From positions 1,966,001 through 2,030,000 of the forward strand of contig NZ_CP095550.1 in NCBI RefSeq assembly GCF_023078335.1: DNA of 64,000 nt, given 5' to 3'. The notes beneath the pieces are model-generated. The model saw nothing but the letters and a program-made list of their open reading frames with translations, was not told where the DNA came from and did not search any database. A program made the position numbers and the translations under genes. Shown here one piece after another: positions 28,012 to 45,144 of the stretch (position 1 is its first letter; each line of letters starts with the position of its first letter). This DNA is from Metabacillus endolithicus (GTDB lineage: Bacteria > Bacillota > Bacilli > Bacillales > Bacillaceae).

Positions 28012-28878
28012 CTACACTCTTTTGAAACCTTCACCAAGCACCTCAGAAGCATCTGTAACTGTCACAAATGCGTGCGGATCGATACTTCGTACCAGTTGTT
28101 TCAATTTTGTGAATTCCGTTTGATCAACTACACACATGAGGACTGGTCTCTCATTATTTGTGAACCCGCCATGTGCTGCAAGTCTAGTAACGCCACGGTC
28201 GATTTCGGTGAGGATCGCATCCTGAACCTCGGCCTGTTTGTTTGTAATAATCATCGTCATCTTCGAACGCCCGAGACCAATTTGCACAATATCAATCGTT
28301 TTGCTCGTCACATATAAACCAACTAAAGCATAAAGTCCTCTTTCAATATCAAAAACGAATGCTGCTGATAGAACGATTAGACCATCAATAAGTGCAACAC
28401 AAGTACCAAGTGACAGACCTGTGTATTTATGAATGATTTGCGCAGCTAGGTCAGTTCCACCTGTTGACGCTTTGCCCCGGAATACGATACCGAGGCCAAG
28501 TCCTATACAAATTCCTCCGAAAAGAGATCCTAGTAGAGGGTCCATTGTTGCTGGCTCCCAGTTTCTTGTTAGGTAAACGACTAGTGGGACAAAAATGGTA
28601 CCAATGAGAGTTTTGATCCCAAATTGCTTTCCTAGTAAAATAACACCGGCAATAAATAGTGGTATATTAAATGCCCACTGAACATAGGCCGGCTCAAAAC
28701 CAAACGTCGCATCAAGGATCGTACTAATTCCACTCACTCCACCAGATGCAACCCGGTTTGGCAGTAAAAATAAGTTGAATCCAATCGCAACAAACGATGA
28801 GCCAACTAGTATGTAGACGTACTCAAGTATCTTTTCTAATGTAGGATTATATGTATCATTTCTTTTTCGCATATTCAT
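28012..28878 (-). CDS. yvjA: YitT-family membrane protein (YvjA)
   Basis: Protein of about 288 residues with five to six membrane helices (VYILVGSSFVAIGFNLFLLP; YVQWAFNIPLFIAGVILLG; LLGSLFGGICIGLGLGIV; others), then a C-terminal soluble domain DUF2179 (about 210-285). Family function is not established; DUF2179 resembles nucleotide- or ligand-binding domains. The ATG at 28878 follows AAGGAGGGT. The upstream in-frame GTG has no ribosome site. Neighbours are cccB and prfB, as in B. subtilis. Confidence 0.87.
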   Translation of the reverse strand: MNMRKRNDTYNPTLEKILEYVYILVGSSFVAIGFNLFLLPNRVASGGVSGISTILDATFGFEPAYVQWAFNIPLFIAGVILLGKQFGIKTLIGTIFVPLVVYLTRNWEPATMDPLLGSLFGGICIGLGLGIVFRGKASTGGTDLAAQIIHKYTGLSLGTCVALIDGLIVLSAAFVFDIERGLYALVGLYVTSKTIDIVQIGLGRSKMTMIITNKQAEVQDAILTEIDRGVTRLAAHGGFTNNERPVLMCVVDQTEFTKLKQLVRSIDPHAFVTVTDASEVLGEGFKRV

Positions 28879-29088
28879 TGCTTTGTTACCCTCCTTTTTA
28901 AACAATGCTATCCTTGCCCTAGATGAGTATAGCACCCGTGATTTTATCTGTGAATAACACCTAAATAACGTGGTAACGAGGTAAAGAAATTAAGTGGTGG
29001 TGGGATTTTTTTTAGTGTTTGCTATTGTGGGGGAAATTATGGGGGTGGTGGTGTTTTTGTGTGGGGGCGAGTTTGTATTGCTGCGGGT
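28879..29088. other. Gene-free region with G-rich tracts
   Basis: The promoter of yvjA should lie at its left end. Near 28994-29070 the plus strand has several G runs (three of five Gs plus GGTGGTGG), unusual for this AT-rich sequence. No coding frame is supported. Confidence 0.5.
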
Positions 29089-29446
29089 ATGAAGTACATT
29101 TGACTGGCTTGGCCCGGTGGTTTTGGTCTTCATCTTCTTTATGAAGTATATTTGGCTTGCTCGGACTGCTCGTTTTGGTCTTCATCCCCCTTATGAAGTA
29201 CATTTCGCTTGCTCGGACTGCTGGTTTTGGTCTTCATCCCCCTTATGAAGTACATTTCGCCGGCTCGGACTGCTGTTTTTGGTCTTCATCTCCTTTATGA
29301 AGTACATTTCACTTACTCGGAGCGCTCGTTTTGGTCTTCATCTCACTAATGAAGTAGGTTTTGCTTGCTCCGGATGCTTGTTTTGGTCTTCATCTCACTT
29401 ATGAAGTACATTTCGTTTGCTTCGGCTGCTGGCTTTGGTCTTCATA
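29089..29446. repeat. Tandem array of seven 52-bp units with palindromic junctions
   Basis: Units start at 29089, 29141, 29193, 29245, 29297, 29349 and 29401, with an exact 52-bp period and a partial last unit. Every unit starts ATGAAGTA and carries TTTGGTCTTCAT about seven bases before its end; the middle is more variable. CTTCAT and ATGAAG at each junction form an inverted repeat across 7 nt. It is not CRISPR (no unique spacers) and not coding (52 is not a multiple of 3). Confidence 0.93.
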
Positions 29447-29575
29447 AAACTAAAAATATGATTTCTTTTTCAAATAGTCTTTTAAGTGAGTCTCTTTTAA
29501 AGTTAAACCGTTCTTTCTGCTACTATATCTAGCTTCACTCACTCAAATTAATATAAATCAACAAATTTGATAAAG

Positions 29576-29648: not shown

Positions 29649-30750
29649 TTATTGAATCTTCGAACGTAAATACGCGTCAATAAACGGATCAAGCTCTCCG
29701 TCCATAACAGCATGAACGTTTCCGATCTCTGTGTTTGTACGGTGGTCTTTAACCATGGAATACGGGTGGAAAACATAAGAACGAATTTGGCTTCCCCAAC
29801 CTATATCTTTTTGCTCACCACGGATTTCAGCAAGCTCTGCTTCTTGCTCTTCAATACGCTTTTGATAAAGCTTTGCTTGAAGCATTTTCATTGCGCGTTC
29901 ACGGTTTTTAATCTGTGAACGTTCCGTTTGACACGTTACAACGATGTTAGTTGGTGTATGGGTAATACGAACAGCTGAGTCTGTTGTATTGATATGCTGA
30001 CCGCCGGCACCACTTGCACGGTACGTATCAACTTTCAGGTCTTCTGTACGAATTTCAATGTCGATTTCTTCATTAAATTCAGGCATAACTTCACAAGAAA
30101 CGAACGAAGTATGACGACGGCCTGATGAGTCGAATGGAGAAATACGAACAAGGCGGTGTACACCTTTTTCAGCTTTTAAATAACCGTATGCGTTATGGCC
30201 CTTGATTAAAAGTGTAACACTTTTAATACCCGCTTCATCACCAGGTAAGTAATCAAGTGTTTCAACCTTGAAACCTTTTTTCTCTGCCCAGCGTGTGTAC
30301 ATACGAAGTAGCATTGAGCCCCAGTCCTGAGACTCTGTACCACCTGCGCCCGGATGAAGCTCAAGGATTGCGTTGTTTTTGTCATGTTGTTCGCTTAATA
30401 GCAACTGAAGTTCAAAGTCATTTAGCTTCGAAACTAAATCTTTTATTTCGGTAACTAGTTCTTCACGTAAATCTTCATCATCTTCTTCTTTAACAAGTTC
30501 ATATGTTAATTGAAGATTTTCATATGATTCGTGAAGTTCGTGGAATTGGTCCACCATTTCTTTTAATGCATTTGTTTCATTAATAACAGCTTGTGCAGCG
30601 TTTTGATTATCCCAGAAATCGGGTGCGGTCATTTGCGCTTCAAGCTGTTGAATTCGTGCTTCTTTTATATCGAGGTCAAAGAGACCCCCTAAAGTCCGCT
30701 AAACGTTTAGCTGTTTTTTCGAGCTCTTGACGAATTTCTACTAATTCCAT
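29649..30750 (-). CDS. prfB: Peptide chain release factor 2, with programmed +1 frameshift
   Basis: The start is the ATG at 30750 (GGAGTGA upstream). The first 24 codons end at CTT TGA C; the remaining frame starts at GAC and runs to 29649. The slippery site is canonical: a Shine-Dalgarno-like AGGGGG (30685-30690) a few bases before CTT-TGA (TGA at 30676-30678). RF2 recognises UGA, so low RF2 favours the shift and more RF2. The main frame has the catalytic GGQ motif ([17 protein letters not shown]) and the SPF-type stop-recognition motif ([12 protein letters not shown]). The protein is about 366 residues. It lies downstream of secA, as in other Bacilli. This break is natural, unlike the others in the window. 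Confidence 0.96.
30676..30690 (-). promoter_or_regulatory. RF2 autoregulatory frameshift signal
   Basis: AGGGGGTCTCTTTGA on the minus strand: internal Shine-Dalgarno, CUU slippery codon and in-frame UGA at standard spacing. Confidence 0.95.
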
Positions 30751-33757: not shown

Positions 33758-33991
33758 TTATGATTGTTTTAATTCACGTAGCTTCTTTTCATGTTGTAAC
33801 GTTTTAACAGAAATAAAATCTACCGTTTCCTGCGTTTCTGTTAATTCAACACGAATGCCATCCATTTTCTTCTCTATTCTACCTAATCGTCCCTCAATTC
33901 TGTCGAGTCTTTCATCTACTTTTTTAAACCTTTGATCTATATTTAATTTTAATTCATTGAGGATCTCTTTCACCATTGTTTCCTGTTCCAT
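33758..33991 (-). CDS. Small coiled-coil protein of unknown function
   Basis: Highly charged protein of 77 residues that is nearly all coiled coil (heptads in RFKKVDERLDRIEGRLGRI and on through the end). It has no signal peptide, membrane helix or known domain. An AAGGAGG site sits 7 nt before the ATG and a strong terminator follows, so it is a genuine single-gene unit. It begins the island inserted between secA and hpf. No function can be assigned. Confidence 0.7.
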   Translation of the reverse strand: MEQETMVKEILNELKLNIDQRFKKVDERLDRIEGRLGRIEKKMDGIRVELTETQETVDFISVKTLQHEKKLRELKQS

Positions 33992-34137
33992 GGTACCACC
34001 TCCTTCTCTATCAACACTCCCATTATAACGGAATAAAGATACAGCCTCTACACGATTTTATGATAAATAAGCGAATTTACAATAACTTTACATAATTGCT
34101 AGACTATGGAACAACTGAAATTTATCTAACAGCCAAT

Positions 34138-34260
34138 TCATACTTGAGCTATCATTTTTTCTACTTCTTCTAATGTTCGCATACCTGATTGAGCGCATAG
34201 CTTGGTGACAGAAAGAGCAGCAAATTAACATGCTTCTTTGGTGAACGTTGCCTGTGCCAC
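34138..34260 (-). pseudogene. Decayed 3' fragment of a ribokinase (PfkB) gene
   Basis: Read on the minus strand, one frame gives TFTKEAC, a stop codon, then FAALSVTKLCAQSGMRTLEEV and a final stop. This matches the C-terminus of the nearby ribokinase (EACRFANAVAALSVTKLGAQ, AGMSNLEEV), and about 70 percent of bases agree by eye over 60 nt. Only the last ~40 codons remain, with an internal stop and a short deletion. It lies 250 bp beyond the flagellinolysin gene, on the opposite side from the full rbsK. Confidence 0.75.
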
Positions 34261-34350
34261 ACCCAAATTCCCCCAACTGGTATGGTGTATCTGGACGGCC
34301 TTAAGCTTGTCGATAACAGTTCTAGTAAAAAAATCGACCCTAGGTCAACA

Positions 34351-34384
34351 AAATAAAATAACCCCTCAAATCAATGAGGGGTAA
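34351..34384 (-). terminator. Terminator of the flagellinolysin gene
   Basis: ACCCCTCA and TGAGGGGT pair with a short loop, followed on the minus strand by TATTTTATTTT. Confidence 0.85.
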
Positions 34385-34386
34385 CT

Positions 34387-36184
34387 TTATGATAAAAGCT
34401 GTAACACAGCTTGTGGCTTCTGATTTGCTTGAGCTAACATGGCTTGTGCGGCTTGATTTAATACATTCTGTTTTGTCAATGTCATCATTTCTCTTGCCAT
34501 ATCAACATCTCTAATACGAGATTCAGAAGATTGTAGGTTTTCAGCATAGTTATTTGTTTGATTTAAAGCATATTCAAGACGATTTTGCATGGCACCAAAC
34601 CTACTACGTTCACTGGAAACTTCATTAATGGCAGTATCAAATAAAGATATAGCCTCTTCGGCACTATCCTTTACATCAATCTCATCCACATTTAAATTTT
34701 CAGTAGTCACTGTTGCAAGTTGAAATGAAATAGACTCTCCGCCCTTTGGTCCTGTTTGAATAGATATAGAGCGGTTATATGAAATTAGTTGGTTTATCAT
34801 TGGCGATGATGTTGTTCCTGTACTACTTGTTGTGCCGGTAGGCCAGATAATATTAAAATTTCCTAATGGATTATCCTGTACATTATCAATATCGGTAACA
34901 ACGTCTTTGGCATTCTTTACTGCTCCTCCATCTGCGTCGTAACCACCGATTGCACCGGTGTCTGCATTTGTAAGATTCATAGAACTAAGAAATCCAGCTC
35001 CATTTGCACTGTAATTTATAGCGAAATCTGTTATTCCGCCCACATATGAGCCAGACGGAATCATCTTCTTCAGGCTTCATCTAAAGTTGCTGAATCGTTC
35101 GTGGAAAGATAGTGCATAACATCTTTGATCCCATTTCCTCCAGCATTTTTAATTTGTTCATGTAGATACCTAACAGCCACATATGCTGAAGAATAATGTT
35201 TACTATCGTTTGTCCATTGCGTATCAGTCCCATTTCCTATCGCATCAACAATATCTTGTTCGTTTCCACCATTCCAGTATAAATCACCTGCAACACGCTC
35301 ATCTCCACCATGAATAAACTCTGCAGTTCCTTCTTTAAACCATTTTGGCAATGACCCATAATTCATACTTCTTGCCATTATGGCATGTGTCATCTCGTGT
35401 GCAATTATTCGGTCATTATAGATTGGTGCTGTTCCACCATCGGGCCAGGTTGCCGGTAGAAAATCATCCACTTCAATTCGAAGCTCAAGGTTTTCTCCCT
35501 TACCGTCTGAACCTACATAATATGCAACTGACGCTAATGCATTAGAATCTGTACTTTGAAACATAACTTTCAAATCAGCTCCGTCTGCCACTATACCGAA
35601 AGCTTCTTCAACCATCTTTTCAGATTGTTCAAGCATAGATCTTCTTAATGTCTCGATAATTTTTTGTTCATCTGTTAATGCAGGGTCTGGGTTTACGGTA
35701 CCACCTGTTTGCGGAGAATCTGGAGTAGTCTCTCCACCACTACCTGCTGGTGGAGGAGCAATAATTCCCCCTTGTTTAATAGCCTAATTCCATTAAAATG
35801 GGTCGTGTTGGCTATATTATCAATTTCGTCTAATATTTCTGTAACCTCTTTTTGTAATTCTCCTTTATCATCACTTGTTAGAGTATCATTTGCCGCTTGA
35901 ACAGATAGCTCTCTTCCCCTTTGTAACAGTGAATGTATTTCATTCATACCACCATCAACTACTTGTAGCATCGAAATTCCGTCCTGAATATTTCTGCTAT
36001 TTTGTTCAAGTCCTCGGATTTGTGCTCTCATCTTTTCCGAAATAGCTAGACCGGCTGAATCATCTGCAGCATTATTAATACGTAATCCAGAAGAAAGCTT
36101 TTGCATAGATTTTCCTATTAAGTTTTGATTTTTTGATAAAATATTAACTATTCCATTTGCTTGCAAATTATTTCGTATGTTCAT
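34387..36184 (-). pseudogene. Flagellinolysin-type flagellin with zinc metalloprotease insert, two frameshifts
   Basis: About 599 residues when repaired. The N-terminal D0/D1 flagellin domain (MNIRNNLQANGIVN to FNGIRLLN, ~150 residues) and C-terminal D1/D0 domain (DSAEEAISLFDTAI to QAVLQLLS) flank a metallopeptidase domain in place of the variable region. The zinc motif is HEMTH (IIAHEMTHAIMA), with the third ligand Glu expected in KEGTAEFIHGG. This is the arrangement of the proteolytic flagellins called flagellinolysins. Shifts: a CCCCC run at 35767-35771 (one base missing; repair gives NKGGIIAPPPAG), and near 35072 (one base missing; repair gives TLDEALKKMIPSG). A sigma-D-like promoter lies upstream. 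The gene sits in an island between secA and hpf, away from hag. The shifts may be sequencing indels. Confidence 0.85.
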
Positions 36185-36227: not shown

Positions 36228-36254
36228 TTATCGTCAATTTTCAGGAATAATTAA
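36228..36254 (-). promoter_or_regulatory. Sigma-D-like promoter of the flagellinolysin gene
   Basis: On the minus strand TAAT, 14 bp, then GACGATAA, against the sigma-D consensus TAAA-N15-GCCGATAT. The same -10 form and spacing occur before hag. It lies about 45 bp upstream of the ATG. Confidence 0.6.
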
Positions 36255-36302: not shown

Positions 36303-37201
36303 TTATCTCTCATGTTCTTTAATGAATATATCTACTTCCTCTAAATTTGACATTCCTGCTTGTGCACCAAGCTTGGTAACCGAGAGAGCAGCAACTGCAT
36401 TAGCGAATCGGCATGCCTCATGTAGTTCTGTCCCCATACTTAGTGAATAAGCCAATGCCCCATTAAAGCAATCTCCCGCTCCTGTGGAATCTACTACCTC
36501 AACCTTGTAACTAGGGATTAGTTCCTCCTGGTTTTGATAAATTAGTACACCTTTTGACCCGTGTGTAACAATGCATTTTTTCTTTATTTGCTCAACTTCT
36601 TCTAAAGTTAATATATCACTTGTAAGCAGACTTCTTTGTTCATGCTCATTTGGAGTTATGTAAGTAACATCAAATAGTAACTCTTTGGATAATGCTTGAA
36701 TTGGTGCAGGGTTTAAAATAACAGGAATATCATATTTTTTAGCCAGTTCCACTGATTCAATAACACTTTCAGGGGAATTTCTAACTGAAGAAGTAAGATG
36801 TCTGCTTCTGCAATAATTTTTTCATTCTCCCTGACCATTTCAGGTGTTAGTTTGTGATTTGCACCTGGAACAACAATGATACTGTTATCTCCTTCTGATA
36901 AGGTAATACTCGCAATACCTGTTGATGTGTTCGAAATTGTTTTTATATACTTTGTATTTACACCATGACATTTAAAATTCTCTAATAAATCTTTTCCGAA
37001 AGAATCTTCACCGACACACCCAAGCATGGTGACATATGCTCCAAGTTTTGCTGCTGCAACGGCTTGATTAGCCCCTTTTCCTCCTGGATTTGTGAAAAAT
37101 GAAGTCCCCAAAACAGTTTCACCAACTTTTGGAACGATATTTGATTGTGTAACAAGATCCATATTAATACTGCCGATAACTAAAACCTTTTGCTCCTTCA
37201 T
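36303..37201 (-). pseudogene. rbsK: Ribokinase, one frameshift
   Basis: PfkB-family sugar kinase of about 299 residues. It has signature 1 (NPGGKGANQAVAAAKLG) and signature 2 with the catalytic Asp (VDSTGAGDCFNGALAY), plus SINMDLVTQ at the N-terminus. It phosphorylates D-ribose to ribose 5-phosphate. The frames join at a GGGG run (36772-36775; CCCC on the coding strand): one added base restores LEIPPESVIESVELAKKYDIP. The ATG at 37201 has AAAGGAGG. No ribose transporter is nearby. It sits between hpf and the flagellinolysin gene, and a fragment of a second copy lies on the other side. Probably a sequencing indel. Confidence 0.88.
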
Positions 37202-37220
37202 TTTAGAAATCCTCCTTTTA

Positions 37221-37256
37221 TAAACGAAAACAGCACCTCGGAAGGTGCTGTTTTCA
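37221..37256 (-). terminator. Terminator of hpf
   Basis: GAAAACAGCACC and GGTGCTGTTTTC form a 12-bp stem with a short loop just after the hpf stop. Confidence 0.8.
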
Positions 37257-37258
37257 TA

Positions 37259-37809
37259 TTATACAGTTGGCTCAATCAAGCCATATTTTCCATCTTTACG
37301 CTTGTACACGACACTTGTCGTATTTGTTTTAGCATCTGTATAGACAAAGAAATTATGTCCTAGCATATCCATTTGAAGAATTGCTTCCTCAGCATCCATC
37401 GGCTTAAGGTCGAAACGTTTCGTACGAACTACCTCATGGTCTTCGTCTTCCTCAATTGGTTGATTACCTTCGCCTTGATAGTTACTAAAAATATAGGAGC
37501 ACCTTGCTCGCGGACCTTACGATTTACTTTTGTTTTATGCTTACGAATTTGACGTTCTAATTTATTCACTACTAGATCAATGGCTGCGTACATATCCTGG
37601 TGATTCTCTTCGGCACGTAACACTAGATCTGTCATCGGAATCGTCACTTCAATTTTAGATTCTTGATCATTATAATACTTCAGATTTACGTTAACATTTG
37701 CATTAACATCCTCTTCAAAGTATCTTTCAAGCTTACCAATTTTCTTTTCTGCATATTCTCTTAATGCTGGAGTTATTTCAATGTTTTCCCCTCTGACGTT
37801 ATATCTCAT
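37259..37809 (-). pseudogene. hpf: Long-form ribosome hibernation factor HPF (YvyD), one frameshift
   Basis: About 183 residues when repaired. The N-terminal ribosome-binding domain (MRYNVRGENIEITPALREYA to ~100) is followed by a linker and the C-terminal dimerisation domain ([19 protein letters not shown], then [19 protein letters not shown]) in the next frame. The break is at an A5 run (37487-37491): one added base gives [19 protein letters not shown] pairs 70S ribosomes into inactive 100S dimers in stationary phase. The ATG at 37809 has AAAGGAGGAG. A possible sigma-B promoter lies upstream. Likely a sequencing indel, as the C-terminal part is well conserved. Confidence 0.92.
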
Positions 37810-37856
37810 GATTGAACTCCTCCTTTATGATAAAGCTATGTACTACTACTTCTATA

Positions 37857-41896: not shown

Positions 41897-43139
41897 TTAG
41901 TTCTTAATTAAAATAGCCATAAACGCTAGTGAAGTATATCCTTCATCCTTTAAGATATCCAATACCTTTGTTAAGAATTGACCATTATGTTCTACTGTTT
42001 TGGCAAAAGATTGGATCAATTTGATAACAATATCGGTTGTTAAACCGTTATGATAGCTAGACAATCCAATAAGTAGAAGTTTTATCATTGAGTAATGTAT
42101 TACTAACATTACATAATCATCATATACAGATTTTTTCCCTAAAGGAAATAGGTTTTTAAATACATAATTCACCAAATAATTTTCAAAGATATACTCATGT
42201 TCTTGAAAGAAAGGTACTATAATATGTCTCAAAGGCATGGTTGTACTTATCTGTCACTTCGCTCATTGATGCATTTGTAATATACCCCATTCCCATAAGA
42301 CTTTCTTTCAAACATTCTATAAATCTTGGACTATTAACACCATCTAAAAATCGGCGATCAATAATTGCCTTCGTTAACTTCATCTGAATACGATTTTGTG
42401 TAGGAATATTATCTAATTCCTTTCTTAGTGACCCTTCATCAATAACCTTCACATATTGCCCAATAATCTGGGGGATATCATTCACCTTATTAAGACTTAT
42501 TATTTCTTGTACCTTTTTTAAAAACATACCTAAAATAACGAGACGATCTTCTATCGAGTAATTTCTATTTTGTAACAGTTGAATGGTAAAAAAACGTAGC
42601 TCCCAGAAATATTGAGCAGGTTTACCATTATTTGCAGGACTGTCACCCTTAAATTTTTTGGAGATAAATATATTTGACTCTACTGCATTTTCAACCTCAT
42701 CAAACTCAATACCATTTGGTTCTAATAATGCAAGTCGTGCAGCTTCAGGGCAAGACAATGTAAGAGAACGTTCTATAATTCCATCAATTAAGTGATTAGA
42801 TCGCGGATAAGTTGTACATGTAGTAGATAAGTTTTCTTCTCCTAAATTCATTTGTACTCTACATAACTTTTCTTCACTTAAAAATGGACAGTTTCCTCCT
42901 TTATCCAATTTAATTTTGGCATAGTCAGCTTCTGAAGGATTTGAGCGATTTCGAATTATATTTTTATCAAATAATTCTTTAAGTTCTATATGGCGCGATT
43001 TTTTATATTTTTTATATGTCGGTTGGTCTATTGTTACCTTCCAACCACTGCAGCAAGAATCTTCACATTCAGAACCTATACAAGAGAATTTATTCATATA
43101 CTGAGGAACAAGTGTTACTTGTTTATTTAATGTTTTCAT
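41897..43139 (-). pseudogene. fliB: FliB-type flagellin lysine-N-methylase, one frameshift
   Basis: About 413 residues when repaired. The N-terminus carries the cysteine cluster typical of FliB/YkgJ proteins (SCIGSECEDSCCSGWKVTI), followed by GGNCPFLSEEKLCRVQ, CTTYPR and SLTLSCPEAARL, which add the remaining Cys ligands of a metal site. FliB methylates lysines of flagellin in Salmonella, and this family is annotated that way. The frame breaks at an AAA run near 42206-42212: one base too many; repair gives YYSTFLQEHEYIFENYLVN. The ATG at 43139 has AAGGAG. It lies between flaG and hag with its own terminator. B. subtilis has no such gene here. Likely a sequencing indel. Confidence 0.85.
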
Positions 43140-43212
43140 TCTCAATTCTCCTTTTTGATACGAATTCTAAAATTAGCAACCCAATATTGAGATGCTCATT
43201 TTAAGATTCATA

Positions 43213-43252: not shown

Positions 43253-45007
43253 TTAACGTAGTAATTGAAGTACACCTTGTGGTTGTTGATTAGCTTGAGC
43301 TAACATGGCTTGAGCTGCTTGAGAAAGAATTGAATTCTTAGTTTGATTCATCATTTCTTTCGCCATATCTACGTCACGAATACGAGATTCAGCAGCAGTT
43401 AAGTTTTCAGAAGATGTACCTAAGTTGTTAATAGTGTGCTCTAAACGATTCTGATAAGAACCTAGTTTTGAACGCTCAGCAGAAACACTTGCGATTGCTT
43501 CATCTAACACAGCTACAGCAGCAGTTGCATTCTTTGCATCAGACACATCTAGAGCATATTCTGTACCAGTGTTATTTGTTCCATTTGTAACACTTTTATC
43601 CGTTGATACATAATGCGCTTTGATTGTGTTTCCTTGACCATCTACAACTGATTTTTCATCTCCAGCTTTTGTAGAAGAGATATTAAGTGCATTTGCTCTC
43701 ATATCTGCCACTTCAACACTCATAGATTGACCAGCATTTGCACCGATTTGGAAAGTAAGTGTACGGTCTTCTGTTACTGCAGGTGTAGTTACTTGTGGAG
43801 CAACCTCAACCTCTTTTGTATCAGTTTCTAGATTAAATGAACCTGCTGCAGTTCCAGAACCGCCACCAGAAACTGCACTAAATGTAAATTCGATTCCATT
43901 TTCATTATAATTTAGTGTTTCACCAGCATCTAGTGAGAATGTTGTCTCTGACTTTTTAGTAGTGCCTTCATATAATGATGCTGTAAATGTTTTAGATGAT
44001 TCATCCCAAGCAACATCAATTTTATCAATATTTTCCATCGCATTTGCCTCAGTAACTGTGAATCCTGTAATAGATGAAGTATTGCCAGTACCAGTTAATG
44101 TTAACGTTTGATTTGTTGGCTCAGTAGAGAATGTACCTTGCCCATTAAAGTTAGCTGTATCATCAACATTTAAATCAATCGTTACAGCTTCTCCATCAGT
44201 CCATGCATCAGCTTGTGCTTTAGTAAACTCAAAACTAATACCTTGGTTGTCATAAGTGTATTTTGCGTTAGCCGCATCATAAGTTACTTTGTCAGCAGCA
44301 ATATTAAGTGTTGCACCAGTACCATCTACACCATCAAAGTCAACTTCAAAATCTGAACCATTCTTAGTAATTGTGATTTCGTTTTTATTAGCTGTATTTG
44401 CTAAGTCTGAATAATCAAAACCGTTATCCGCTGTACCAGAAACTGTAATATCAAACTTTGCTTGTGTAGTACTATTCGTCCATGATACCGGCTCTGAACC
44501 AACTGTAATTGTTTGATCAATTGCTTTTGTAACATTTACTTTTGAAGCTGGTGTCGTAACAGCTGGAGTTACTTCGTAATTTGCAACTCTGTCACCGTTT
44601 AATAGTTTCATTGTATTGAACTCAGTAGTGTTACCAATACGATTAATTTCAGAAGTTAACTGATTCATTTCCTTTTGAATTTCTTCTCTGTCTGGGGCAG
44701 TGTTAGTATCATTACTTGATTGAACTGCTAGTTCACGCATTCTTTGAAGGATAGAATGTGTCTCGTTTAAGGCACCTTCAGCAGTTTGGATTAATGAAAT
44801 ACCATCCTGAGCATTTCTTTGAGCTTGGTCTAAACCACGGATTTGTCCACGCATTTTTTCAGAGATCGCTAAACCTGCAGCGTCATCTCCAGCACGGTTA
44901 ATACGAAGTCCTGAAGATAACTTCTCCATAGATTTTGATTGACCAGTTGAAGCACTGTTTAACTGACGATAAGTGTTTAATGCAGCGATATTATGATTAA
45001 TTCTCAT
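43253..45007 (-). CDS. hag: Flagellin with an enlarged central domain
   Basis: Main filament protein, 584 residues, about twice the B. subtilis Hag. The conserved D0/D1 ends are [20 protein letters not shown] to MKLLNGDR, and the last ~100 residues with [20 protein letters not shown] and PQGVLQLLR. The middle (~150-480) is Thr/Asp/Gly-rich, beta-type and probably forms D2/D3 on the filament surface. I start at the ATG at 45007 (AAGGAGG upstream); the longer frame runs into the leader. It is expressed from a sigma-D-like promoter, with a CsrA-type hairpin in the leader, and is followed by a strong terminator. It is a likely substrate of the FliB-type methylase next door. Confidence 0.96.
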
Positions 45008-45016
45008 TTCAATTTT

Positions 45017-45054
45017 CCTCCTTGAATTTAGGCTCATTCACATCCTTGTGAATG
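45017..45054 (-). promoter_or_regulatory. CsrA-binding hairpin and Shine-Dalgarno in the hag leader
   Basis: CATTCACA-AGGA-TGTGAATG forms a perfect 8-bp hairpin with AGGA in the loop (45035-45054); its centre ACAAGGATGT matches the CsrA recognition sequence closely. A second GGA motif is the AAGGAGG ribosome site (45017-45023). This two-site layout is that of hag in B. subtilis, where CsrA blocks translation. Confidence 0.85.
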
Positions 45055-45118: not shown

Positions 45119-45144
45119 TTATCGTCACTTCTTCAATTTGTTTA
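45119..45144 (-). promoter_or_regulatory. Sigma-D-like promoter of hag
   Basis: TAAA, 14 bp, GACGATAA on the minus strand, close to TAAA-N15-GCCGATAT. It lies about 110 bp upstream of the start, leaving room for the CsrA leader. Confidence 0.75.

Follow-up and report, generated by a model that had tools for sequence, protein, structure and literature searches.

Proteolytic flagellins were described in 74 species in 2017, and in Clostridium haemolyticum both mixed filaments and proteolytic activity were shown, with the homologue being the second most abundant protein of the filament (PMC5595980). The same source describes the flagellinolysin family as distant from M9 and gives the roles of Glu262 and Ala265, which lie three positions apart in the C. 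haemolyticum protein. In Hylemonella gracilis, the flagellinolysin gene is reported to lie outside the flagellar gene cluster (PMC7643111). The idea of a mixed enzymatic filament is not new, since such filaments have already been demonstrated in C. haemolyticum (PMC5595980). Among the papers listed, judged by title and the start of the abstract, none dealt with Metabacillus or with the locus considered here; NCBI already gives the name flagellinolysin to proteins in Metabacillus. The gene found here in Metabacillus endolithicus is, judged by its similarity to other members, a new and divergent representative of this already described family.

The analysed stretch of M. endolithicus DNA (64,000 nucleotides, hereafter the window) contained three consecutive ORFs on the minus strand at 34387-36184, along which the reading frame changes twice, as the sequence-only reading had noticed. 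From 36184 down to 34387, their products are in turn a Flagellin_N domain, a zinc-peptidase domain of gluzincin type and a Flagellin_C domain. The N-terminal piece (35693-36184, minus strand) matched positions 1-136 of the 139 in the D0/D1 profile PF00669 (E 5.8e-41), and the C-terminal piece (34387-35064, minus strand), which holds the rest of the surface region and the returning D1/D0 end, matched PF00700 from position 3 to its last, 86 (E 7.6e-27). Both flagellin profiles passed their cut-offs on the pieces flanking the peptidase, in the proper order. The middle piece (35070-35636, minus strand) reached 239.1 bits on the NCBIfam flagellinolysin model NF033876, scored on this piece by itself rather than on a mended whole protein, against a cut-off of 205. 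The two outer pieces also matched NF033876, each at its expected end, with 110.8 bits for the C-terminal one. Peptidase_M9 gave a borderline score for the middle piece (27.7 bits against a cut-off of 26, E 2.1e-06), over a part of the profile only (159-253 of 289). By the flagellin and flagellinolysin profiles and by its predicted fold, the 34387-36184 region is a flagellinolysin gene, a flagellin with a zinc peptidase as its surface region; the earlier proposals of flagellin D0/D1 ends around a metallopeptidase and of a flagellinolysin type were borne out by the flagellinolysin profile search that had been suggested with them, as well as at the level of the fold.

The putative zinc-binding and catalytic motif HEMTH (35385-35399, minus strand) contributes H80, E81 and H84 of the middle piece, and 22 positions beyond its first His stands the first Glu of EGTAEF (E102; 35331-35333, minus strand), the predicted third zinc ligand. 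In an alignment of 43 rows, H80, E81, H84, E102 and A105 (the basement Ala) were invariant columns, and so was the second of the two downstream Glu columns. HExxH was present in 119 of the 120 listed homologues (the best 120 of 7958), and 118 of the 120 had EGxAE downstream as well. The motif described earlier as HEMTH...GTAEF is present, but its zinc-binding Glu is more likely the one just before GTAEF than the one inside it, a choice by analogy that follows from the E-x-x-A spacing published for the C. haemolyticum protein, with the spacing taken alone and outside any alignment. The predicted structure of the middle piece had a fold like that of gluzincins (VIA-align), and no collagenase was among the 50 VIA-align matches listed. 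Foldseek alone gave nothing at E 0.001 or better for this piece, the best match being lugdulysin (8.5e-03), and a sequence search for its solved relatives returned none up to E 10.

Among the 7995 candidates sharing the most words that were scored, 7958 proteins passed, and the best 120 were retained as the homologue set. Within these 120, the highest identities were 74% for the N-terminal piece (over 113 residues), 64% for the middle piece and 53% for the C-terminal piece, and no near-identical intact copy was found. Flagellinolysin scored over the cut-off in seven of the 199 genomes searched, that of M. endolithicus included, and four of these seven belong to the genus (21 genomes). One is M. 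litoralis (G015), a close relative with a 99% identical SecA, whose flagellinolysin (P0014) is intact, 583 aa long and scored 390 bits on the family model; it lies next to hag, enclosed by two flagellin genes. A catalytic-domain tree was built on a selection of 64 rows from these homologues and the comparison loci; in it, the sequence from the window stood without supported neighbours.

The gene is positioned between secA and hpf, and 7.07 kb separate its upstream end from the start of the hag ORF (43253-45037), with fliS and fliD in between, in agreement with the earlier placement at 7 kb from a conventional flagellin. Directly beside hag, a gene for the flagellin lysine-N-methylase FliB (41897-43145, minus strand) is split in two frames, and its larger piece scored 280.6 bits on NF038110. 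Elsewhere in the window, a tandem repeat of units of about 52 bases (29088-29451) lies between the ORFs 28012-28935 and 29649-30632 and gives shifted matches in the comparisons with M. litoralis and with comparison genome G002. Outside the window, the first 20 kb of the second contig of this genome were 94.7% identical, over 78% of their length, to a plasmid of Metabacillus sp. B2-18, which fits the genus.

The flagellinolysin gene stands between two versions of the ribokinase gene rbsK. On its secA side, a stub of the 3′ end of rbsK (34138-34223, minus strand) forms one uninterrupted stretch with the secA flank and corresponds without a break to the rbsK end of M. litoralis; this region was 84% identical to M. 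litoralis over 33951-34221, and the stub shared 78% identity over 64 bases with the terminal part of the full rbsK. On the other side, a divergent rbsK in two frames (36303-37201, minus strand) matched TIGR02152 by both halves. The match between M. litoralis and the window breaks off at 34221, within the 3′ end of the M. litoralis rbsK, and resumes at 36322, where rbsK restarts; identity per 100 bases was 63-87% over 36322-37221 and 89-100% from 37222 on. The 34215-34390 tail had no match at E 0.01 in the comparison loci outside this genome. The simplest reading of these sequences is that the stub would be the resident rbsK end, with the complete rbsK and the flagellinolysin gene having been imported together as a block of about 3 kb; the 'island' proposed before is better seen as such a block, which took the place of most of rbsK as well. 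As the two rbsK protein pieces were 80 and 72% identical to M. litoralis versus 61-66% to five other genomes of the genus, rbsK was probably donated by a close relative.

Comparison genome G002, a close relative, contained a reversed flagellin beside hpf (L119, 5845-7382; C1 4428845-4430382); next to this flagellin, the hpf end is present a second time, as a copy of 191 bases with 78% identity. A Flagellin_N match between secA and hpf was found in two of the 19 genomes of the genus with both genes on one contig, counted by eye with G009 and G020 left out, as their two genes are on different contigs. It is possible, if rather doubtful, that in the M. litoralis group the secA-hpf interval is a landing site to which foreign flagellin genes, enzymatic ones included, could come through one-sided homologous recombination with a neighbouring gene, leaving duplicated gene ends such as the rbsK stub here and the hpf-end duplicate in G002; two of 19 genomes are too few to prove this. 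In another genome, G012 (L121, 11735-13044), the interval between hpf and fliS held a reversed flagellin along with a second fliS-like gene, which scored below the family cut-off, and fliS-like genes adjoin flagellins also in G002, G003, G005, G007, G009 and G017.

The sigma-D consensus is TAAA-N15-GCCGATAT. Upstream of the flagellinolysin gene, a candidate sigma-D-like promoter reads TAAT-N14-GACGATAA (36228-36253, minus strand), and a similar site, TAAA-N14-GACGATAA, lies upstream of hag (45119-45144), the −35 element being TAAT versus TAAA for hag. Exact TAAW-N14-GACGATAA sites numbered three genome-wide, and two of them precede the two filament flagellin genes of the genome. When a spacer of 15 was also allowed, eight sites were found genome-wide versus ten for the reversed-pattern control, i.e. 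no enrichment. The pattern by itself is no evidence; its location and its resemblance to the hag promoter are, and it is this resemblance that supports the sigma-D-like promoter reported previously. A pattern fitted to both promoters, shaped after both sites had been seen, matched only these two sites in the window versus 0.22 expected. TAAA-N15-GACGATAT precedes the flagellinolysin gene of G012 itself, and no comparable sigma-D-like site was found within 250 bases upstream of the M. litoralis gene. Directly 3′ of the gene in the window is an intrinsic-terminator-like stem-loop (34361-34382, minus strand), and 34345-34392 folds at −19.1 kcal/mol (z −5.3).

The two frame changes were compared with the state of the surrounding assembly by placing ORFs of at least 120 aa from 300 kb of M. 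litoralis on 264 kb of M. endolithicus. Under the stricter count (70% identity, 80% coverage, tandem repeats removed), 30 of 158 well-matched M. litoralis genes were split over more than one frame in M. endolithicus (31 breaks); with the two genomes exchanged, the count was 2 of 170. The flagellinolysin gene itself was too divergent to be among the 158. A looser first count, with tandem-repeat rows included, gave 34 of 168 versus 4 of 177. Taking G002 as the reference with 17 matching genes, 2/17 were broken in M. endolithicus and 0/17 in reverse, and the comparisons of G002 on M. litoralis and of M. litoralis on G002 gave 0/16 and 1/17. Homopolymers of at least five bases were located at 12 of the 31 breaks (control mean 5.3, with the highest of 200 control draws also 12), and runs of at least six at 7 of the 31 (control mean 1.9, highest control 5). 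As an observation on the assembly, the region C1 1846001-2110000, which includes the window, is rich in frame breaks.

On the preferred reading, to which we assign a probability of about 0.8, the flagellinolysin gene is intact in the organism and broken only in an error-rich assembly, transcribed by sigma-D, incorporated as a filament subunit and imported together with rbsK. The two breaks are likelier to be sequencing or assembly errors than decay, because frame breaks are in strong excess over this genome (30/158 vs 2/170), which also backs the earlier suspicion that the indels are errors; decay was dropped as the first choice after these counts. Against the preferred reading stand the absence of an intact copy of this very gene from the 120 listed homologues, the TAAT of the −35 element, the lack of genome-wide enrichment of the looser promoter pattern and the missing comparable site at the M. 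litoralis gene. If the gene were instead a true pseudogene, recently imported and then inactivated by two frameshifts, no enzyme would be made. This is unlikely, though it draws on several observations: two frame changes in one gene slightly exceed the genome rate (0.32 expected for a gene of this length, P about 0.04), the neighbouring imported rbsK is also broken, and only 4 of the 21 genomes have a flagellinolysin that passes the cut-off, which means that the genus tolerates its absence. On the other hand, the active-site residues are kept, and the same kind of break affects 30 of 158 genes, many of which are more than 90% identical to M. litoralis, as well as the adjoining hpf (37429-37824, minus strand), which a frame change has shortened to an open frame of 131 aa versus 188-206 aa in all 20 other genomes of the genus. 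Both neighbours of the flagellinolysin gene, rbsK and hpf, likewise carry breaks, and five breaks within 3.3 kb occurred in 7.6% of simulations. Without better reads, a frame break in this genome is no ground for calling a gene a pseudogene, and the other broken genes of the window call for the same caution.

For an intact gene, transcription by sigma-D together with hag is probable in view of the promoter, and export through the flagellar system by the D0 ends would be expected from the family. The product could then become a minor filament subunit with peptidase domains on the surface, as has been shown in another species; the likeness of its promoter to that of hag makes co-expression and hence a mixed filament plausible. 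An intact protein might alternatively be secreted and work outside the filament as a free protease, which would suit a gene lying apart from hag and ends that are only 64% (N-terminal, 113 residues) and 40% (C-terminal, 173 residues) identical to those of hag, but both flagellin end domains are nearly complete and the C. haemolyticum homologue is abundant in the filament itself (PMC5595980), so that such a role appears improbable. Least likely of these alternatives is a single ancestral gene for all Metabacillus flagellinolysins, which simply changed its place within the genome. In its favour, the close relative M. litoralis has one too, beside hag; however, the two genes are in different places, and in a topology test of 23 rows, with the long-branched G018 sequence left out and the tested groups named after the first tree was seen, the AU test rejected a grouping of the catalytic domain from the window with that of M. 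litoralis (p 0.0046) and a clade of four Metabacillus ones (p 2e-6). The Metabacillus flagellinolysins tested seem, by their sequences, not to be one lineage. We favour arrival of the gene with the divergent rbsK through recombination in the secA-hpf interval, as suggested by the identity switch and the resident rbsK stub.

Our results add a divergent enzymatic flagellin to those of a Bacillus-like genus, apparently gained independently of the one in M. litoralis, and its hag-like promoter means that such a host could serve for work on mixed enzymatic filaments. Compared with FliA(H) of C. haemolyticum, the type example (FlaMP; NF033876; PMC5595980), the predicted protein similarly has flagellin ends around a gluzincin-like peptidase in which HExxH is followed by a distal Glu and, three positions further, an Ala, and it likewise occurs beside a plain structural flagellin; unlike FliA(H), the gene here is alone between the secA-side rbsK stub and the divergent rbsK and is frame-broken in the assembly. 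As in H. gracilis, it is not inside a flagellar gene cluster, but whereas NUDIX and MarR genes surround the H. gracilis gene (PMC7643111), here it is hag that lies nearby, beyond fliS and fliD. The M. litoralis flagellinolysin shares the genus and the domain order, yet is only 54, 58 and 48% identical in the N-terminal, middle and C-terminal pieces, differs in location and is rejected as a sister.
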